A stretch of DNA of 64,000 bases, from positions 1 through 64,000 of the forward strand of contig NZ_JAKOAV010000003.1 in NCBI RefSeq assembly GCF_029478095.1. The letters are read 5' to 3'. The DNA is from Pelotomaculum isophthalicicum JI. Lineage in GTDB: Bacteria > Bacillota > Desulfotomaculia > Desulfotomaculales > Pelotomaculaceae. The position numbers and the translations under genes are program-made. Below the pieces are notes generated by a model. That model saw only the letters and a program-made list of their open reading frames with translations. It made no database searches and was not told the DNA's origin. This document shows, one piece after another, positions 1,222 to 25,180 of the stretch. The first letter of the stretch is position 1; every line of letters starts with the position of its first letter.

Positions 1222-1408
1222 GCCTTAGACGAGGCAAGCGGTTAGAGATTCCACCCACCAAGTTGACGGCCACGGCGCTATCTGTGGTCCCTTGAGGAAA
1301 ACCTGGATAACTTGGTACATTACGCAAGTAATGGCCCCATGGCGGCGGGCGGGTCGCTGAGAAGAATCTCCTAAGGCAAGCAGACAAAACAGTCTGCTTT
1401 TTCTTTTT
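1222..1408 (+). ncRNA. Structured RNA with terminator, copy A
   Basis: Folded by eye, a closing stem GCCTTAG (1222-1228)/CTAAGGC (1371-1377) encloses CCAAGTT/AACTTGG, a hairpin around the conserved loop GGCGCTATCT, and a CATTAC-GCAA-GTAATG hairpin with a GNRA tetraloop. A terminator GCAGAC/GTCTGC plus T-run follows at 1380-1408. The same elements, with base-paired substitutions, occur in copy B at 3296-3521, so the structure rather than the sequence is conserved. The size, complexity and GATTCCAC-rich 5' part remind me of the raiA-motif class, which is unconfirmed. A small gene starts 13 bases after the T-run. Confidence 0.75.
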
Positions 1409-1420
1409 GGGAGCAATGCC

Positions 1421-1729
1421 ATGGAAATTGATAAGCCGGTTGAATCATTGTTAATTTCAGCAATAACGGAGAGCAGGGAATGGAAGAGAATAGATCGCAA
1501 ATGGGTAAAAATCGAGAACGTCAAAGTAAAAGAGAGCGTTAAGAATAGATTTCCAGAGACAAATATCCGGTGGTGGAAGAAGGAATATGCCCGTTTCAGG
1601 CATAGAGACGGTTCCGTCGTTGAAGTGCACAGGTTTGTGAATACAAATAACCAGATAGAAGAATATGGCGTGAATACCTTTTCGTACGAAATTCGTACGA
1701 AGAAGTCTTCTGGAGTTCACCCTCAATAA
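1421..1729 (+). CDS. Small basic protein downstream of structured RNA, paralogue A
   Basis: A 102-residue protein, basic overall and rich in Trp, Lys and Arg. The core W(K)KEYARFRHRDGSVVEVHR followed by FVNTNNQ is shared with the protein at 3537-3869 (there WKKEYAVYRHKDGSTVEIHR). Both genes lie directly behind copies of the same structured RNA and its terminator, so the RNA and the protein travel together. The ATG follows GGGAG with normal spacing. There is no membrane segment or signal peptide. The composition would suit RNA binding, but that is inference. Family not recognised. Confidence 0.65.
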   Translation: MEIDKPVESLLISAITESREWKRIDRKWVKIENVKVKESVKNRFPETNIRWWKKEYARFRHRDGSVVEVHRFVNTNNQIEEYGVNTFSYEIRTKKSSGVHPQ

Positions 1730-1913
1730 GCCGCGGCATTAAATAAACCGGAATAATCCTCGTTGCCGCTTGATAGTTCCGAATTAAATGCTATGGACGA
1801 ATTTCGTACATCTGATATTGTAGGCCATCAAACCGACAGTTCTATAATTACATAGTTTGAGGACTATAGGTTTAATCGTCGCCCGGCGCGTGAACACCAT
1901 AGGGGGGGGGAAC

Positions 1914-3083
1914 CTGTGCACCCGGTGCACAGGCACATGAAATCTATCTGAGGACACGACAAAATGTCGCCTCCAAAATCAATTTTAAAACCTTTACGGG
2001 CAGGAGGAATGTTCTAGTTCCACTTAAACCAAAATTGAGGAATATTGCCTTAAAAATTGCCCGTTATGGGTAATTACAGGTTTATGAAACCTATCTGAGG
2101 GTAGGCCATTTTGTCCGACCCTCTACACCAGGGGCAAAATGGCCTTGACGGTGACAATAACTACGACAAAATGTCGCAGTTTCTAAAGGTAAAAAAGGAC
2201 AAAATGTCCCGATTAAAACCCTTACCGATGTTGCCGCCGCCAGGGTGAAGATGATGGAAGAAACCTGTACCGACCGTGCACAGGTTTATGAAATCCTGCT
2301 GGATGGACTTGCGTCAAAATGTCGTATGTTAAAATCAAAAGGACATTTTGTCCTTTTGAAAACCATTGCCGATATTACCATTACGGGGAATAAAGCCGGC
2401 TTGTTCAGCCGGTGAACAAACAGGCATGAAGTTAATAGACCTTTTGGTTTGAAAGGACAAAATGTCCCTTCAAAAAGAGCAGAAGATTTTACCGCCAGGC
2501 AGTAAAGTCCTCATTAAACATTTTGACGCCCGGCGTCAAAACTATGTCGCCTGGCGGCATAGTTTCGGGACTATAAATTCAATCAGTCGCCGGGCGACCG
2601 AAAACCACAGGGGAAGAATACTGTGTACCGGGTGCGCGGTTTATATTTAGAAAGTAACCTGCGCACCGGTTGCGCAGGTTTTAGGAAAAGGTGGCCGGGT
2701 AAAGAATATCGCGTGCCCGGCACGCAGTTTATAAAGCGGCAATTAAGAAAGTAGTTTCGTCCGCCGAATGGATAAAAGGTAGAGCAACATACTGGATGGC
2801 CGGAGCTGTATTCCGCTGATCCTCCCCTAATATTCCTACCGCCTAAAAATACCGTCATTTTAAATGATGGAATCCCTTTTAACGAAGTGGCAAATTGGAC
2901 AGCGCTGTCCGATTTGAAGGCTCCTGTTCAGATTTTTTCCGAATCGTTAAAAGGTATTTACAAAGGATGTGTCACCTTTTAAACACCCTAGTTTTAACCG
3001 AGACCGCCGGCAGTAAAGCCGTATCTCAATTCGTCACCCAGTGACGAAAAGATTGGAGATTTTTGTTCACGCGGTGAACAAAA
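1914..3083. repeat. Field of short, mostly different perfect palindromes
   Basis: This stretch without an intact gene holds at least a dozen perfect or near-perfect palindromes. Examples are 1914-1932 (CTGTGCAC arms), 1957-1969 and 2164-2176 (CGACAAAATGTCG), 2197-2209 and 2455-2467 (GGACAAAATGTCC), 2337-2357, 2521-2541 (TTTTGACGCC arms), 2656-2680 (AACCTGCGCA arms), 2711-2725, 2897-2910 (GGACAGCGCTGTCC), 3030-3048 and 3061-3083 (TTTTGTTCAC arms). Apart from the repeated GACAAAATGTC core the sequences differ. Several sit inside decayed reading frames of a ParB-like protein. Similar palindromes recur at 4232-4269, 4655-4670, 5600-5647, 6563-6611 and 6884-6906. Confidence 0.75.
2131..2415 (+). 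pseudogene. Decayed ParB-like helix-turn-helix gene fragment
   Basis: One frame reads NGLDGDNNYDKMSQF and on to DKMSRLK. It then shifts by one base to LKTLTDVAAARVKMMEETC and continues to AQVYEILLDGL before TGA at 2413-2415. The phrase LKTLTDVAAA recurs at 6790-6850 in a similar remnant, and a VQVYEILLEYLLRE-like piece lies near 1093. I recall LKTLTDVA-type segments preceding the helix-turn-helix part of ParB-like proteins in Peptococcaceae, so the family is from knowledge and the decay is seen. There is no good start codon. Palindromes of the GACAAAATGTC type lie within it. Confidence 0.45.
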
Positions 3084-3295
3084 TACCCTGGGACACGGCA
3101 GGCCGGAAAACTAAATCCCTTTTCTGTTGGTGCAACTTAGAATTTTTCTAACCCGCTTCAGGACCGTTTATATACCATTCTGGCAGTGTATATAGAAAAT
3201 ACAGGTTAACTATCATCAAAATGATGGTTCTTAGGGTCAAAATTTTGTTGACATGATTCATGCTACGTGCTACATTATGTTTAGCATCAAAGAAC

Positions 3296-3521
3296 GGCCT
3301 TTGTTGTGGCAAGCGGTCGGGGATTCCACTCACCAGGTTGACGACCTACGGCGCTATCTGTAGGTACTTGGCTTATAGCCTCGGGGGAAACCGAAGAACC
3401 TGGCAACGTCGAGAGACGACTCTAGGGAAGAGTAGAGTCCGCTTAGTATGGCCGAGAAAGCTGTACTCAGTAGAATCCTACAAGGGCCACGCAGACTTTA
3501 ACAGTCTGCTTTTTCTTTTTT
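3296..3521 (+). ncRNA. Structured RNA with terminator, copy B
   Basis: The closing stem is GGCCTTTGT (3296-3304)/ACAAGGGCC (3480-3488). Inside it are CCAGGTT/AACCTGG, the hairpin ACCTAC/GTAGGT around loop GGCGCTATCT, GGC-ttat-AGCC, TCGG/CCGA, CGTC-GAGA-GACG with a GNRA loop, and ACTCT/AGAGT. The terminator GCAGACT/AGTCTGC with T-run is at 3491-3521. Relative to copy A (1222-1408) several stems have changed on both strands while the loops stay the same. This is the signature of a selected RNA structure. The next gene's ribosome binding site (AAGGAG) begins right after the T-run. Confidence 0.8.
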
Positions 3522-3536
3522 AAGGAGATTTGTTTT

Positions 3537-3869
3537 GTGAGATTCGACAAGCATACCAAAGAATATATTCTTTCAGTAGTAAGGGACACAAACTCTAAAG
3601 ATTGGCATAGAAACAAAGAAGATTATCAATGGCATAATATCAATAGCCGTAATCACATAAAGGCCATTAAGGACAAGTACCCAAATACAAATATAAAGCA
3701 CTGGAAAAAAGAGTATGCTGTTTATCGTCATAAGGATGGCTCAACAGTTGAAATACATAGGTTTGTCAATACTAAAAACCAAAAAGAGGAACATGATGTT
3801 AAAATCAAACGGATTAATTTTAACAAGGAAATTGCCAGGTTAATCGCCGCTGCCAAAGAGGAACATTAA
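3537..3869 (+). CDS. Small basic protein downstream of structured RNA, paralogue B
   Basis: A 110-residue basic protein, clearly paralogous to the one at 1421-1729. Both carry the block WKKEYAxxRHKDGSxVEIHR and FVNTxNQxEE at about residues 60-90, and both follow the same RNA/terminator unit. The GTG start is 9 bases after AAGGAG. It has a helical, lysine-rich C-terminus (NKEIARLIAAAKEEH). It has no transmembrane or catalytic signature I recognise. Any expression from the RNA promoter would require read-through of the terminator, so the RNA could act as an attenuator or a partner. That is inference. Confidence 0.7.
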   Translation: MRFDKHTKEYILSVVRDTNSKDWHRNKEDYQWHNINSRNHIKAIKDKYPNTNIKHWKKEYAVYRHKDGSTVEIHRFVNTKNQKEEHDVKIKRINFNKEIARLIAAAKEEH

Positions 3870-4116: not shown

Positions 4117-4842
4117 AAGTGTAATAGGATTTTTGTCCCTTTAACTAAAATATAAGCTTCCCCGATTTTTTCGGGGAAGTTGCAGGGGATAAAGTATGAG
4201 GGGGGGCGGTATTAGTGGACACCTTTTGACGAATCCGCAAATTGAGTATTTACCGTTTGCAATTTGCGGAATGGTGTTGATCGGTCAAAAACTGGACAAA
4301 TCCCACTCTATCCACTTGTGGAGTGAGTTCTCTTTAAAATTCAGGTGAGTAACTTTACTCAACGCAAAATCGCGCTGAGTGGGTGAGGGTATAATAACCA
4401 TACCTTTACTTAATGCTGTCCGGTTTATCGCTTGTATGACGCCCCAATTCTGGGGAGTCCTCTTCCTTAATATAAAGCGACTCCTGAATTCTAAGGAGTC
4501 AAATATTAAAGGTATCAACGTAATATTGATGCCTTTTTGTTTTTGCGGCGGTGTTCGCCTGGAGAGATGGGGGTGGCGTTGCCGGGTCCTCCCGGGGGGT
4601 AAAGATGCGGTACGGTGGCGGTTTTATTTTTCCTTGAGACGTTGGGTGATAAATTCCACAGCGCTGTGGAGTTTCTCATATCTTAATAAAGGAAACAATA
4701 TATATTACCATTGGCGAAAATTGTTCAAAGAAGGTAGTGTTTTTACATTTTTTGTGTCTTGTAATCATGTTGTTAAGGATGGTATAGTATGGTAAAGAAA
4801 CATTATGTTGTTAGAAATAAAAAGAGGGGAGGCACAAAAAAT
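4117..4842. other. Gene-poor stretch with hairpins and degenerate sequence
   Basis: No convincing gene is visible. A hairpin at 4156-4180 (GCTTCCCCGA arms) may end the preceding transcript although no T-run follows it. An inverted repeat CCGCAAATTG/CAATTTGCGG lies at 4232-4269, GACTCCT/AGGAGTC arms at 4479-4500, and a palindrome TCCACAGCGCTGTGGA at 4655-4670. The GACTCCT element recurs at about 5567-5588. A 138-codon open frame at 4379-4795 has Trp/Cys/Arg-rich composition and no ribosome binding site, and reads as chance. The promoter of the toxin-antitoxin pair must lie near its right end. Confidence 0.5.
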
Positions 4843-5028
4843 ATGGACGCTGCTGCTGTTAAGTTTTCTTCCGGGACCAGGGCGCGTAGGGGAAACGCTT
4901 TAAAGAGTCTTGCGGCGTCATTATCTTTAATGATGGATAGGGATGCCGCGAAAAAAATTAAACAGGCCGAAGAAGATATAAAAACTGGTAAAACACGTTC
5001 CTTGAGGGACATCCTCAAAGATGGCTGA
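4843..5028 (+). CDS. Type II antitoxin (RelB/Phd-like small protein)
   Basis: I choose the ATG at 4843 because GAGGGGAGG lies about 10 bases upstream; an in-frame ATG at 4789 would add 18 basic residues. This gives a 61-residue protein, with a basic N-terminal half (SSGTRARRGNALKSL) and an acidic helical tail (KQAEEDIKTGKTRSLRDIL). The tail resembles the C-terminal toxin-binding part of RelB-type antitoxins, where a TGKxxSL/DIL ending is common. It overlaps the toxin gene by 8 bases, the usual arrangement for coupled antitoxin-toxin translation. The antitoxin presumably autoregulates the operon. The exact family is uncertain. Confidence 0.75.
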   Translation: MDAAAVKFSSGTRARRGNALKSLAASLSLMMDRDAAKKIKQAEEDIKTGKTRSLRDILKDG

Positions 5029-5311
5029 TGTCCATTTAACAAGGGAACCGGAAAAATATTTAAAATCGATTCCGGAACAACTTAAAAATAAGTTCGTAAT
5101 TGAAATGCTCGCCCTGGAACATGATCCCGAGGCGGGTATTTTGTTGAGAGGTTCTTTTAAAGGATATTATAGAATAAAATTTAAGTTTCAGAAAGTTGAT
5201 TATCGAATAATTTACCGGATAGCCTGGGACGAGGATATTGTTTATGTAGTTTTACTTGGACCGAGGGAAAATATTTATCGAAGGCTTACTAGATTGTTAA
5301 GAGGTAAATGA
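5021..5311 (+). CDS. RelE/ParE-family toxin
   Basis: 96 residues, the normal size for the RelE/ParE superfamily. The sequence has the family's outline: an N-terminal strand (VHLTREPEKYLKSIP), a helix, then GSFKGYYRIKFKFQKVDYRI and IYRIAWDEDIVYVVLLGPR ending in a basic helix. The G-x-[YW]-R-[IL] and [DY]-Y-R-I/h-Y segments are diagnostic. RelE proteins cleave mRNA on the ribosome and ParE proteins poison gyrase; which one applies cannot be told here. It is coupled to the antitoxin gene upstream and followed by a terminator at 5311-5335. Confidence 0.88.
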   Translation: MADVHLTREPEKYLKSIPEQLKNKFVIEMLALEHDPEAGILLRGSFKGYYRIKFKFQKVDYRIIYRIAWDEDIVYVVLLGPRENIYRRLTRLLRGK

Positions 5312-19648: not shown

Positions 19649-22600
19649 ATGGAATTGATAAAATTATGGGAAAACAAAAGAAAACTTGAGCTAATTACCC
19701 TAATTATTGCGTTATTCAGTCTGTTATGGTTCAATGTTCCGGCCGTAAAAGCGGAAGAAAAAACAGATTACCTGAACAAACCTGAAAAAGTGGGTAAAAA
19801 GTTACCGTACGGGCTTAGAGAAGAAACAAAAGCTATTCGTTTACCCTTTATTTCAGACCAGGGGAAGATTATCGACGAGGTTGTTGAAAAATATGCCAGA
19901 ACATTTGGCGACTCGGTATATGTGACCAGTGACGGAAAACAAGCATACTACCTGCCCCAGTTTGATAAAAAATCGCATGACAGGGCGGAAACCATACTGT
20001 TAAAGCGAAAAACAGGGGATATAATACTGCAGCCGTTGTCAACTTTTTCACCGGGTCTCACTACAACATATCCACGGGAGACATTTGATGCAGCTGCGGA
20101 AGATACGGTGACCAAGTCCACCTATAGCGCCGGCTCCCCAAGTCGATTAAATACATTTACCGCACTGCAAGGTGATGGAACTTCGTCCAGCCCTTATTTG
20201 ATTTATACCGCGCAAGATCTCGATTCGATTAGAAATACAGTTGGTGAAGCAGTTCACTACAAGTTAATGAACGATCTTGATTTATCCGTCTTCGGCCAGG
20301 AGGCAAACGGGTGGACGCCCATTGGGGACGAGGACAACCCGTTTAACGGGTACTTTGACGGCAATGGTAAAGTTATCAGCGGATTGTATGTTCGAGGCGA
20401 CTTGTTCTTGGGACTGTTCGGCTGTACCAGCGATTCCAGCGAGATTAGCAACACCAATTTGGAAGACGTAAACATTGTTGGTTCAAATGATTCCGTTTTT
20501 GTCGGCGGGTTGGTTGGGGTTGCTTTTGGCAAAATAAATAACTCTTCTGTAACCGGCAACGTGTCAGGAGACAGATTCGTTGGCGGTTTGGTAGGCTGTT
20601 CAGAAGAGGGATATGTGAATTCAGATGAGGAATATGTTAATAACTCCCATACAGACGTTGGAGTGTCATGTACCGGTCTTTTCGCCGGCGGTCTGGTGGG
20701 CAGCACTGATGGAGTTGTAAGCAACTGCCACGCCACCGGCGGCGTGTCCGGCAATGAGTACGTTGGCGGACTGATCGGGTGCGCTTACAATAATGTAATC
20801 AACTCCCATGCCAACGGAACAGTGTCCGGTAATGATATATTCGTTGGCGGGCTGGTTGGCGGGTCTTTAGACGGCAATATAAATAACTCCTATGCCACCG
20901 GCACAGTGACAGGCATTGGTTTTGTCGGCGGGCTGACAGGCTATGCTCATGTTGGTGATATCAACAATTCCTATGCCACCGGTGCAGTGACAGGCATTGG
21001 TGGAGTGTCCGGTGATGATGATTACGTCGGCGGTCTGGTAGGGTGTACTTATCACAATGTGATTAATTCCCATGCCACCGGTACAGTGTCAGGCGCTGAT
21101 GATTACGTTGGCGGGCTGGCAGGTGAGGTCGGTAATATAAATAAATCCTATGCCACCGGCAGAGTGACAGGTGATATTTACGTCGGCGGGCTGGCTGGTA
21201 ACGCCGTTGATATAAGCAACTCCTATGCCACCGGTGCAGTGACAGGCACTGGTTTTATCGGCGGACTAACCGGTGAAACCTGCGGTAGTAATATGCATAA
21301 TTCCTATGCCGCCGGGAGAGTGTCAAGCACGGGTATTTTCGTTGGCGCTCTGGTGGGCTATAATTGTTCTTCGGCAGTCATCAACAACTGCTACTGGGAT
21401 ATAAATACCACGGAACAAACTTCCTGCATCGGCGGCGACGGCTACGCCGGCAATTCCGGTAATAATGGAAGAACCACGGCGCAAATGAAACAGAAGGCCA
21501 CATTTGACGGATGGGATTTTACCGCAATATGGGCGATAGACGAAGGTAATAGCTATCCGTACCTGCAAACAGACAACGACAAAACCGCGTTGGGCAAACG
21601 CCCCTACTGCCAATACGGAAAAGGCTCAGTCAACCTTTCCACCGGCAACTTCATCCTGGAACAAACAGACCTGGCCATTCCGTCAATAGGCCCGTCCCTG
21701 GAGTTTACCCGGTTTTACAACTCTCAGGACAACTATACAGGTCCCCAAGGCCGGGGCTGGACACATAACTACAACACAAACCTTACATTAAACGACGGGA
21801 GCGTCATTGTAGCTTATGCCGACGGTCATACCTACACCTTTACTTCTGACAATGGCGTATATACCCGTCCCCCCGGCTGCTTCGAGACAATTACCGCTGG
21901 CCCGGGCAGTGGTTACACACTCACTTTCAAGGACCAGACCAAGTACTTTTTTAACGTTGAAGGCCGGTTGACCAGTATTGCGGATAAAAACGGCAACACT
22001 CTAACCCTGACCTATACCAACGGCATTCTGACCTCAGCCGCCGAACCGGCCGGCCGCGTCCTTACCTTCACCTACGATACCGACAACCATCTGACAGGTG
22101 TAGCCGACCCTGCCGGTCGGAACGTCGCCTATACTTATGACAGCAGCGGCAACCTGGCCACAGTGCGGGATGTCCTGGGCAATATCACCCAATATAACTA
22201 CGACGCGCAAGGCCTGACCGAAATTATCTCTCCCGTCGGTAATGCTCTCTTATGCAACACCTACGACAGCAACAGCAGGGTAATCAGGCAGACCGACGGC
22301 TGCGGCAGCACCACCCAGTATAGCTATGATCTGGCCAACCGGCAGACGACCGTAACCGACGCCCTGGGTAATACCAGCACTGTCACCTGGGATGAAAAGC
22401 GCCGTGGCACCGCTATCACCTACCCGGATAACAGCACCGAAATCTTTGTCTATGACAACAACAACTGCCGTACCAGAGTAACTGACGCCCTGAACCATAC
22501 CACCGCCTGCGGCTATGACGATTTCGGCAATCTCCTTAATATCACCGACCCGGCTGGAAACACCACCATCATAACCTACGACGGCAGTAACAACCTCCTG

Positions 22601-25180
22601 TCCGTGAAGAACGCAGCCGGTAAACAAATTAATTTCACTTACGATGCAAGCAATAATTTAACCAGCATAACCGACACCTTGGGGAATACCACAACCTATA
22701 CCTACGACAATAGCGGGTTACTGCTCAGCAAAACAACCCCCGCTCCTAATTCCGGCACCACCAGCTACACCTACCAAGACGGCCTGCTGAAAACCGTCAC
22801 CGACCCGGCGGGAAACACCACCACGTACGATTATGACGAGGCCGGACGGCCAGTCACCATCACCGACGCCGAAGGCAAACAAACCGTCATGTCTTATAAC
22901 GCTGCAGACAACCCGGTCGCTGTCACCGACCCCCTGGGAAACACCACAAGTGTCACTTACGATTGGCGCGGCGACATACTCACGAAAACTGACGCTAAGG
23001 GTTATATCACCAATTACGCATACAACGGCAACGGAAAACTTATCAGTATAATTGACGCCTTAAACCACGAGACCAGTTATGGATACGACGCGGAAAACCG
23101 CCTGGTAACAATCACCGACCCACGCGGGAACACGAGCACTTACAGCTATGACGCCTTGGGCAGACTCACCGGCGTTACCGATCCCCTTGGCAACACAATC
23201 ACCAACCATTACGATGCCGCAGGCAATCTAACCGGAAAAACCGATGCCCTGGGTAAACAAATCCTCACCGTCAGCTATGATCCGTTGAACAACCCCGAAA
23301 ACATCAGTGATGCCCTGGGGAACACCACTAACAATGAATACGACAGCCTGAGCCGCTTGGTTAAAGTAACCAATCCATTGGAGCAGAGCACCCAATTTTA
23401 TTACGACGACCTGAACAGATTGAAAACAACCGCAGATGCCCTGAACGGCCAGGGCAGCCAGGATTTTGACGCCCACGGCAACCGGACGGCCATGGTAGAC
23501 CCTAACAGCAACGAGACAAGCTTCAACTATGACCCTGCCGACTGCCTGACCGGCAGAACCACCGCCGCTTCCGGCAGCACCACCCTGGCTTATAATGCCA
23601 GGAACCTGGTAGCGCATAAAACCAACGCCAGAGGCCAGACAACCACTTGCGAATATGACGCCGCCGGCCGCCTGGTCAGCCTCACCAGTTCCGACGGGAC
23701 AGTGACCCTTACCTACGACCAAAACGGCAACATGCTAACCGCCACCGACAGCAGCGGCGCAACCGAACGCTGGTATGACGCTTTAAACCGCTTGGTCAAA
23801 TACATGGACATTCAGGGTAACATTATTGAATACGCTTACGACGCAGCCGGTAACCTGATTACCCTCACCTATCCTGGGGGCCGGCGCGTTAACTACGAAT
23901 ACGATGACGACAATCAGTTAGTGAAAGTAACCGACTGGGCAGGCCGGATCACCACCTACGAGTACGACCCCAACGGCAGGCTCGTGCGGACAGTTCACCC
24001 GAACGGCACGGAGACGACCCGCGCATATGACGACACCGGCCGGCTGGCGCAGCAAAAAGATAAAAATACAGGCGACAGTATCATCAGCCAGTACGATTAC
24101 ACCTACGACCCTGCAGGAAATCTAACCGAAGAGAAGAATTCCAACGAAACAGGGCAATTAACCATGGACGACACCGCCTTGACCTACGCTGCCGATAACC
24201 GCCTGGCTACGTATAACGGACAGACCGTCCTATACGACGCCGACGGTAATATGACAAAAGGGCCCCTGGCCGGCAACATGGTCAACTTCACCTATGACAC
24301 CCGCGGCCGGCTGACCGGGGCGGGGAATATCACATACACTTACGATGCCGTTAACAACCGCGTCCGGGCCAGCAACGGAGACCGTCAAACCAGCTACACA
24401 GTCAATCCGAACGCCCGCTTAAGCCAAGTATTAGTCCAAAGAGACGAAGAAAACAAACAGACCTTTTACATCTACGGCCTGGGCCTAATCGGCCAGGAAG
24501 ATCAAGGAGGAGAATACCGCAGCTACCACTTCGACATGCGGGGTAGCACCATCGCCCTGACGGATGACAACGGCCAGGTGACCGACCGCTTCCAGTACGC
24601 CCCTTATGGAGAATTAATCTACCGGAGCGGAAACACCGCAACGCCGTTCCTGTTTAACGGCCGTTACGGCGTTATGACTGATGCCAGTGACCTGTACTAC
24701 ATGCGGGCGCGCTATTACAACCCGGTTGCCAAAAGGTTCCTGAGCCCAGACACGTTAACTGGTCAAGTTAGCAACCCGCAGTCGCAGAACCGGTATATTT
24801 ACTGCGAGGGTAACCCGGTATTGCTTGTAGATCCAACGGGGCATAGAAGTGGAAGAATTTACTGGGCAGCCAATGTGGATTTTGCAAATTATAACTATGA
24901 GGAGTTATATGAACAGTATATTACCTTAGAAGAACAGATACAGAATGAAACAGATATCTTGAATGGAGATTATAATTGGTGGGATAAAGATATTGCAGAA
25001 TATAATTTGTCAGTGTATTCGGACCAGATTAAAGTACTAAATGAATTACTCATCATTAAAGGAAACTATTCTCAAGAGGAACAAGACTTCGCCCAACTGG
25101 CCCTGCAAAGCCTAATTGATGAGGAAACTAGAACTGACATTGATGAAGCTAGTGGAATTGTTTTGGGAATGTATGGGTGA
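19649..25180 (+). CDS. Secreted GLUG/Rhs-repeat polymorphic toxin, core part
   Basis: 1843 residues. A signal peptide (LITLIIALFSLLWF, cleavage after VKA) comes first. About ten GLUG repeats (YVGGLVGxxxxxxINNSYATGxVTG type) span residues 220-640, and a DUF6531-like entry domain (SVNLSTGNFILEQTDLAIPS) follows at about 655. Some forty YD repeats span 730-1600. The Rhs core is at about 1625-1720 (LYYMRARYYNPVAKRFLSPD, NPVLLVDPTG). Rhs proteins form a shell around a C-terminal toxin released in a neighbour. Here the frame ends at a TGA, and the same frame goes on to encode an AHH nuclease (25181-25492). The C-terminal 125 codons are AT-richer than the core. Confidence 0.92.
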   Translation: MELIKLWENKRKLELITLIIALFSLLWFNVPAVKAEEKTDYLNKPEKVGKKLPYGLREETKAIRLPFISDQGKIIDEVVEKYARTFGDSVYVTSDGKQAYYLPQFDKKSHDRAETILLKRKTGDIILQPLSTFSPGLTTTYPRETFDAAAEDTVTKSTYSAGSPSRLNTFTALQGDGTSSSPYLIYTAQDLDSIRNTVGEAVHYKLMNDLDLSVFGQEANGWTPIGDEDNPFNGYFDGNGKVISGLYVRGDLFLGLFGCTSDSSEISNTNLEDVNIVGSNDSVFVGGLVGVAFGKINNSSVTGNVSGDRFVGGLVGCSEEGYVNSDEEYVNNSHTDVGVSCTGLFAGGLVGSTDGVVSNCHATGGVSGNEYVGGLIGCAYNNVINSHANGTVSGNDIFVGGLVGGSLDGNINNSYATGTVTGIGFVGGLTGYAHVGDINNSYATGAVTGIGGVSGDDDYVGGLVGCTYHNVINSHATGTVSGADDYVGGLAGEVGNINKSYATGRVTGDIYVGGLAGNAVDISNSYATGAVTGTGFIGGLTGETCGSNMHNSYAAGRVSSTGIFVGALVGYNCSSAVINNCYWDINTTEQTSCIGGDGYAGNSGNNGRTTAQMKQKATFDGWDFTAIWAIDEGNSYPYLQTDNDKTALGKRPYCQYGKGSVNLSTGNFILEQTDLAIPSIGPSLEFTRFYNSQDNYTGPQGRGWTHNYNTNLTLNDGSVIVAYADGHTYTFTSDNGVYTRPPGCFETITAGPGSGYTLTFKDQTKYFFNVEGRLTSIADKNGNTLTLTYTNGILTSAAEPAGRVLTFTYDTDNHLTGVADPAGRNVAYTYDSSGNLATVRDVLGNITQYNYDAQGLTEIISPVGNALLCNTYDSNSRVIRQTDGCGSTTQYSYDLANRQTTVTDALGNTSTVTWDEKRRGTAITYPDNSTEIFVYDNNNCRTRVTDALNHTTACGYDDFGNLLNITDPAGNTTIITYDGSNNLLSVKNAAGKQINFTYDASNNLTSITDTLGNTTTYTYDNSGLLLSKTTPAPNSGTTSYTYQDGLLKTVTDPAGNTTTYDYDEAGRPVTITDAEGKQTVMSYNAADNPVAVTDPLGNTTSVTYDWRGDILTKTDAKGYITNYAYNGNGKLISIIDALNHETSYGYDAENRLVTITDPRGNTSTYSYDALGRLTGVTDPLGNTITNHYDAAGNLTGKTDALGKQILTVSYDPLNNPENISDALGNTTNNEYDSLSRLVKVTNPLEQSTQFYYDDLNRLKTTADALNGQGSQDFDAHGNRTAMVDPNSNETSFNYDPADCLTGRTTAASGSTTLAYNARNLVAHKTNARGQTTTCEYDAAGRLVSLTSSDGTVTLTYDQNGNMLTATDSSGATERWYDALNRLVKYMDIQGNIIEYAYDAAGNLITLTYPGGRRVNYEYDDDNQLVKVTDWAGRITTYEYDPNGRLVRTVHPNGTETTRAYDDTGRLAQQKDKNTGDSIISQYDYTYDPAGNLTEEKNSNETGQLTMDDTALTYAADNRLATYNGQTVLYDADGNMTKGPLAGNMVNFTYDTRGRLTGAGNITYTYDAVNNRVRASNGDRQTSYTVNPNARLSQVLVQRDEENKQTFYIYGLGLIGQEDQGGEYRSYHFDMRGSTIALTDDNGQVTDRFQYAPYGELIYRSGNTATPFLFNGRYGVMTDASDLYYMRARYYNPVAKRFLSPDTLTGQVSNPQSQNRYIYCEGNPVLLVDPTGHRSGRIYWAANVDFANYNYEELYEQYITLEEQIQNETDILNGDYNWWDKDIAEYNLSVYSDQIKVLNELLIIKGNYSQEEQDFAQLALQSLIDEETRTDIDEASGIVLGMYG

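Follow-up and report, generated by a model that had tools for sequence, protein, structure and literature searches.

The window, i.e., the whole 64,000-nucleotide stretch of Pelotomaculum isophthalicicum JI DNA that was analyzed, contains two copies of a structured RNA, copy A (1222-1408) and copy B (3296-3521), both on the plus strand and approximately 2.07 kb apart. The mean identity of their columns is 78% over the aligned stretch, with peaks in the first 50 nt (80%) and in the 3' arm of the terminator together with the T-tract (21 of 21 nt). Two further copies were found: one, near-identical to copy A, in Pelotomaculum sp. PtaU1.Bin035 (contig MVRN01000047; hereafter G008), and a diverged one in a genome of another genus (G005:C4:153261-153418). 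For copies A, B and G008, the following elements were distinguished: (i) a sigma-70-like promoter, (ii) a structured body, (iii) an intrinsic terminator and (iv) an ORF encoding a small, basic protein. The promoters and the homologous protein gene downstream had not been reported in the initial annotation of this DNA.

Inspection and folding revealed a fold common to A and B, composed of P1, P2, P3 around P4, P5, P6 and the terminator (P1, P2 and P6 were absent from the stems listed previously). The structured bodies occupy positions 1222-1377 (copy A) and 3296-3488 (copy B) of the plus strand. P1 is the closing helix of the molecule in both copies (GCCTTAG, 1222-1228, with CTAAGGC, 1371-1377, in A; GGCCTTTGT, 3296-3304, with ACAAGGGCC, 3480-3488, in B). 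It is followed on the 5' side by a bulge of about 16 nt (J1/2) carrying the conserved GGCAAGCGGT, and its 3' strand is contiguous with the 3' strand of P2 (GAGATTC/GAATCTC, 1245-1251/1364-1370, in A; GGGATTC/GAATCCT, 3320-3326/3473-3479, in B). P3 is formed by CCAAGTT (1258-1264) and AACTTGG (1309-1315) in A, where the whole helix spans 1257-1264/1309-1316, and by CCAGGTT (3333-3339) and AACCTGG (3397-3403) in B; this correspondence had been proposed earlier, and the stems were confirmed in both copies. Inside P3 lies the eight-pair hairpin P4, built around GGCGCTATCT, with a CGCUAU loop and closing GG/CU (1268-1275/1282-1289, DNA loop CGCTAT, in A; 3344-3351/3358-3365 in B). P6, common to both copies, lies at 1340-1346/1353-1359 in A. 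Copy A further contains P4b (1295-1297/1302-1304), and copy B has additional hairpins in the middle of the molecule. P5 is CATTAC-GCAA-GTAATG in A (1318-1323/1328-1333) and CGTC-GAGA-GACG in B (3407-3410/3415-3418). The GNRA hairpin of the initial annotation is present in both copies of the window, but it is not a general feature of the RNA, because in the G005 copy UGCC and GGCA can pair into a hairpin whose loop has five bases. The folding of the two copies exceeds chance, with z-scores of -2.1 and -3.2.

The first covariance model, built from copy A and its near-identical G008 relative, matched copy B at 59.9 bits (E 1e-13). Applied to 113 genomes of the class, the same model yielded one new copy, that of G005 (67.8 bits), which had been missed by BLASTN with B as the query. 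In the four-sequence alignment (A, B, G008 and G005), 96% of the pair cells can pair, and 18 of the 46 pairs are changed on both sides; shuffles gave 7.1±1.8 such pairs (none of 500 reached 18) and controls with slid partners 1-4, and, as only four sequences are compared, significance at the level of R-scape is not claimed. Examples are GCCUUAG/CUAAGGC versus GUCUUAG/CUAAGAC in P1 and GGCCAC/GUGGUC versus GGUUAU/GUAACC in P4; the latter bears out the suggestion that the hairpin around GGCGCTATCT is altered on both sides. Since this alignment had been fitted to the structure model, a plain MAFFT alignment was also folded; P2, P4 and the terminator were obtained again, and the doubly changed pairs numbered 7 in total. 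An alignment by sequence only mispairs the P3 strand of copy B, because copy A holds both AACCTGG and AACTTGG. RNAalifold, run on alignment A7 fitted with model R2, predicted 45 pairs, 16 of which show double changes. Between JI and G008, the RNA diverges by 2.5% and the non-coding DNA downstream by 1.3%, so that this pair is uninformative on constraint. Weak R2 matches (12-19 bits) elsewhere among the genomes were, on inspection, attributed to chance; one of them contains a tRNA T-arm-like sequence. Taken together, the model matches and the double changes support a functional structured RNA with covarying stems, and the earlier description of two diverged copies with a common stem order holds.

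The RNA of copies A and B is undescribed and matches no Rfam family. Over the whole window no family reached its threshold, and cmscan with relaxed filters (E ≤ 10) returned only chance matches, none of them overlapping A or B. Such a search, including the raiA family (RF03072), had been suggested in the initial annotation together with the guess that the RNA belongs to the raiA-motif class. raiA (ModT) is a highly structured Bacillota RNA of about 200 nt whose sigA promoter is conserved among the clostridia examined (PMC11706538), and our RNA is similar in length, complexity of fold, phylum and presence of a promoter. No resemblance in sequence or structure was found in either direction, however. 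RF03072 (cut-off 101.3 bits) had no match in the JI genome or in 40 relatives, and Rfam scans of the G008 and G005 loci (E ≤ 5) gave nothing overlapping the RNA, raiA included. The model functions within the phylum, as it detected raiA in 7 of 41 genomes (6 above the cut-off), and the reciprocal search of six raiA loci with R2 was negative. That the RNA is a diverged raiA is thus extremely improbable, and as far as the Rfam model goes the guess is refuted. Complex structured RNAs that are missing from Rfam are uncommon.

All four copies are preceded, at the same position just upstream, by a putative sigma-70-like promoter recognized by its match to the consensus. That of copy A (TTGACT-17-TAATAT; 1186-1214, +) lies in the same relative place in G008 (TTGACT-17-TAATAT) and G005 (TTGACA-18-TATATT), and that of copy B (TTGACA-17-TACATT; 3248-3276, +) has a TG before the second hexamer. 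At the other end, each copy is closed by GCAGAC-loop-GUCUGC-UUUUUCUUUU. The terminator of copy A (AAGCAGAC-AAAACA-GTCTGCTT with a T-rich tail; 1378-1408, +) has the 6-bp stem common to the four copies, and copy B ends in the intrinsic terminator GCAGAC-TTTAACA-GTCTGC, also with a T-rich tail (3491-3520, +). The shared terminator noted earlier for A and B thus extends to G008 and G005, and its stem is invariant while the other stems vary. The identity of GCAGAC/GTCTGC and of the T-tract TTTTTCTTTT in four otherwise diverged RNAs is conservation beyond what a terminator needs.

In A, B and G008 (three of the four copies), a ribosome binding site and the start of an ORF follow 13-16 nt past the terminator tail, which leaves no room for a promoter of its own; the ORF should therefore be read by readthrough. 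Promoter, RNA, terminator, ribosome binding site and ORF in line are also what would be expected of a cis-acting leader, either a riboswitch or an autoregulatory site of the protein, attenuating the ORF at the terminator. The conserved unpaired bulge and loop, which resemble a binding site, and the identical terminator stem point in the same direction. A switch between alternative folds is not apparent, however: no conserved partner in the body was found for either terminator arm, the duplex energies being no better than those of shuffles (p 0.11-0.98), and in the predicted folds P1 and the terminator coexist. The copy of G005 has its promoter and terminator with no ORF behind them, and copy A keeps the RNA despite an altered end of its ORF, both of which speak against a leader. 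We regard a cis-acting leader as somewhat doubtful overall; in the form of a leader with protein-mediated antitermination, it is a serious rival.

ORF-A (1421-1729, +; 102 aa, pI 9.7) and ORF-B (3537-3869, +; 110 aa, pI 9.8), the latter with a GTG start and an AAGGAG ribosome binding site right past the terminator, encode homologous basic proteins. Their homologue in G008 has 107 aa, the three proteins having pI values of 9.4-9.8 and the A/G008 type sharing 42-50% identity with that of B. Compared with the intact G008 protein, the C-terminal end of ORF-A is replaced from about codon 85, and the palindrome CGTACGAAATTCGTACG lies at the break. No Pfam family fits the ORFs, and searches of NCBIfam, PHROGs and PADLOC with the G008 homologue as query assigned none. 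The AlphaFold2 model of the G008 protein is of fairly high confidence (pLDDT 85, pTM 0.72) and has the element order H-E-H-E-E-E-H. Foldseek and VIA-align found only weak matches to it in PDB and viral libraries; PUR-alpha, Whirly and AcrIIA22-type (7jta) chains scored Z 4-4.6 among many others, below the level of kinship. The protein has no sequence relatives among solved structures.

The G005 RNA has no ORF behind it and lies between two genes with no relation to the ORF which, by eye, are of the LytR-CpsA-Psr type and O-antigen-ligase-like. The RNA-ORF link is therefore not obligatory. A candidate C-terminal remnant of the ORF (DVKKKR...) behind this RNA was no better than shuffles (p 0.18) and was rejected. 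Also behind it, at L022:1825-1891, ATGATATGCTACCCCCAGATAGG... and its complement form a long hairpin, probably the terminator of the convergent gene, whose shape explains the weak matches to microRNA models there. The solitary RNA of G005 would suit an orphan trans-acting ncRNA (a riboregulator or scaffold), with the ORF elsewhere a mere neighbor carried along in duplication or movement. We consider this unlikely, as the ORF has been kept in the same place even though A and B are strongly diverged, including at the protein level. That the RNA persists in loci with an altered protein (copy A) or none (G005) is easier to reconcile with an RNA acting alone or guarding against the protein than with a cis leader.

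The reading to which we incline, tentatively, is that of a new, apparently rare ncRNA-protein module in which the terminated RNA is in excess over the readthrough mRNA. Each copy would be an ncRNA gene in its own right, with a sigma-A-type promoter, a multi-branched RNA of 160-195 nt and an intrinsic terminator. Most transcripts would stop at the terminator and give the structured RNA, while occasional readthrough would produce an mRNA with both RNA and ORF; the RNA would thereby be made in excess over the protein. We infer that the small basic protein binds the RNA, which may hold the protein in check or confer specificity on it, as in type III toxin-antitoxin systems or AbiF. Transcription, RNA-protein binding and a toxic or defense role are thus parts of the proposal deduced from the arrangement of the locus.

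The four copies are distributed over three genomes of one family (two copies in JI and one each in G008 and G005). The RNA is missing from the other family members that were searched, among them one further species of the same genus and, from the same species, one incomplete genome, and no further copies were present in 398 genomes sampled across the phylum. In a strict-motif scan of 84,980 species genomes the sole match was that of Pelotomaculum sp. PtaU1.Bin035, a result that bounds close relatives only, because the strict motif would miss a copy like that of G005. In IMG/VR, one scan using protein alignment A2 and five using DNA patterns gave unrelated sequences only. Protein searches of plasmid and phage records found nothing, nor did DNA searches for copy B in plasmids and for copy A in phages. 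The homology between JI and G008 starts just upstream of the promoter (at about 1178) and runs past the ORF, and the sequence further upstream differs. RNA and ORF therefore seem to travel together, which fits a unit that may move as one piece.

The surroundings of the two copies contain several other features. The non-coding region 1860-3100 has many short palindromes with differing stems (GGACAAAATGTCC, TGCACCCGGTGCA, TTGTTCANNCGGTGAACAA and TATGTCGCCTGGCGGCATA), several of them in repeated contexts, e.g., ACAGGTTTATGAAATC; comparable palindromes are found downstream of this ORF in G008 as well, and they have the appearance of palindromic mini-elements of one family or of a decayed repeat. 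Two adjacent small ORFs at 4789-5311 resemble, by eye, a toxin-antitoxin pair of the RelBE/ParE type; this pair is also found beside the copy of G008, where its relative orientation is inverted. Farther along, 19649-25180 encodes a protein of unusual length (1843 aa) that by eye is RHS/YD-repeat-like, with N-terminal GLUG-type repeats.

To our knowledge, ncRNAs joined through a terminator to one small protein gene are, in the known cases, toxin-antitoxin or defense modules. The antitoxin RNA of type III systems is a tandem repeat array. No direct repeats of at least 12 nt were found in the three copies of our RNA examined, and no domain of the ToxN/AbiQ type was detected in the protein (Pfam, NCBIfam and PADLOC). 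As neither a repeat array nor a ToxN-family toxin was found, we do not assign the loci to type III; the comparison of the AlphaFold2 model with PDB and viral libraries gave no clear match to a ToxN-like fold, and absence there excludes nothing. In their sequence organization, A, B and G008 are nevertheless like the type III systems (ToxIN, CptIN, TenpIN and AbiQ), with an RNA gene, a terminator and a protein gene in one unit, as type III loci are bicistrons with one promoter and an intrinsic terminator between the RNA gene and the protein gene (PMC5086642). The AbiF locus of Clostridioides difficile, RCd22, has a SigA-driven ncRNA, a Rho-independent terminator and limited readthrough into the toxin mRNA (PMC12373285). 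Our loci share with AbiF (abiF RNA RF03085 and an Abi_2 protein) the promoter, structured ncRNA, terminator, ribosome binding site and a gene placed for readthrough. They differ in that Rfam scans of the copies gave no match to RF03085, the protein of about 105 aa has no Pfam family and no Abi_2 domain, and the RNA is larger, with no repeated motif. It is possible, if rather uncertain, that the Pelotomaculum-type lineage carries a new class of RNA-protein module, one whose small basic protein, from a family not yet described, is controlled or guided by a single multi-branched RNA with no repeat array.

Two copies in one window sufficed here to recover an RNA family that is restricted to a small number of sequenced genomes. 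If the RNA binds the protein, the locus would represent a module of type-III-like character with a novel RNA architecture, and the presence of two diverged copies in the same genome would provide a ready test of specificity.
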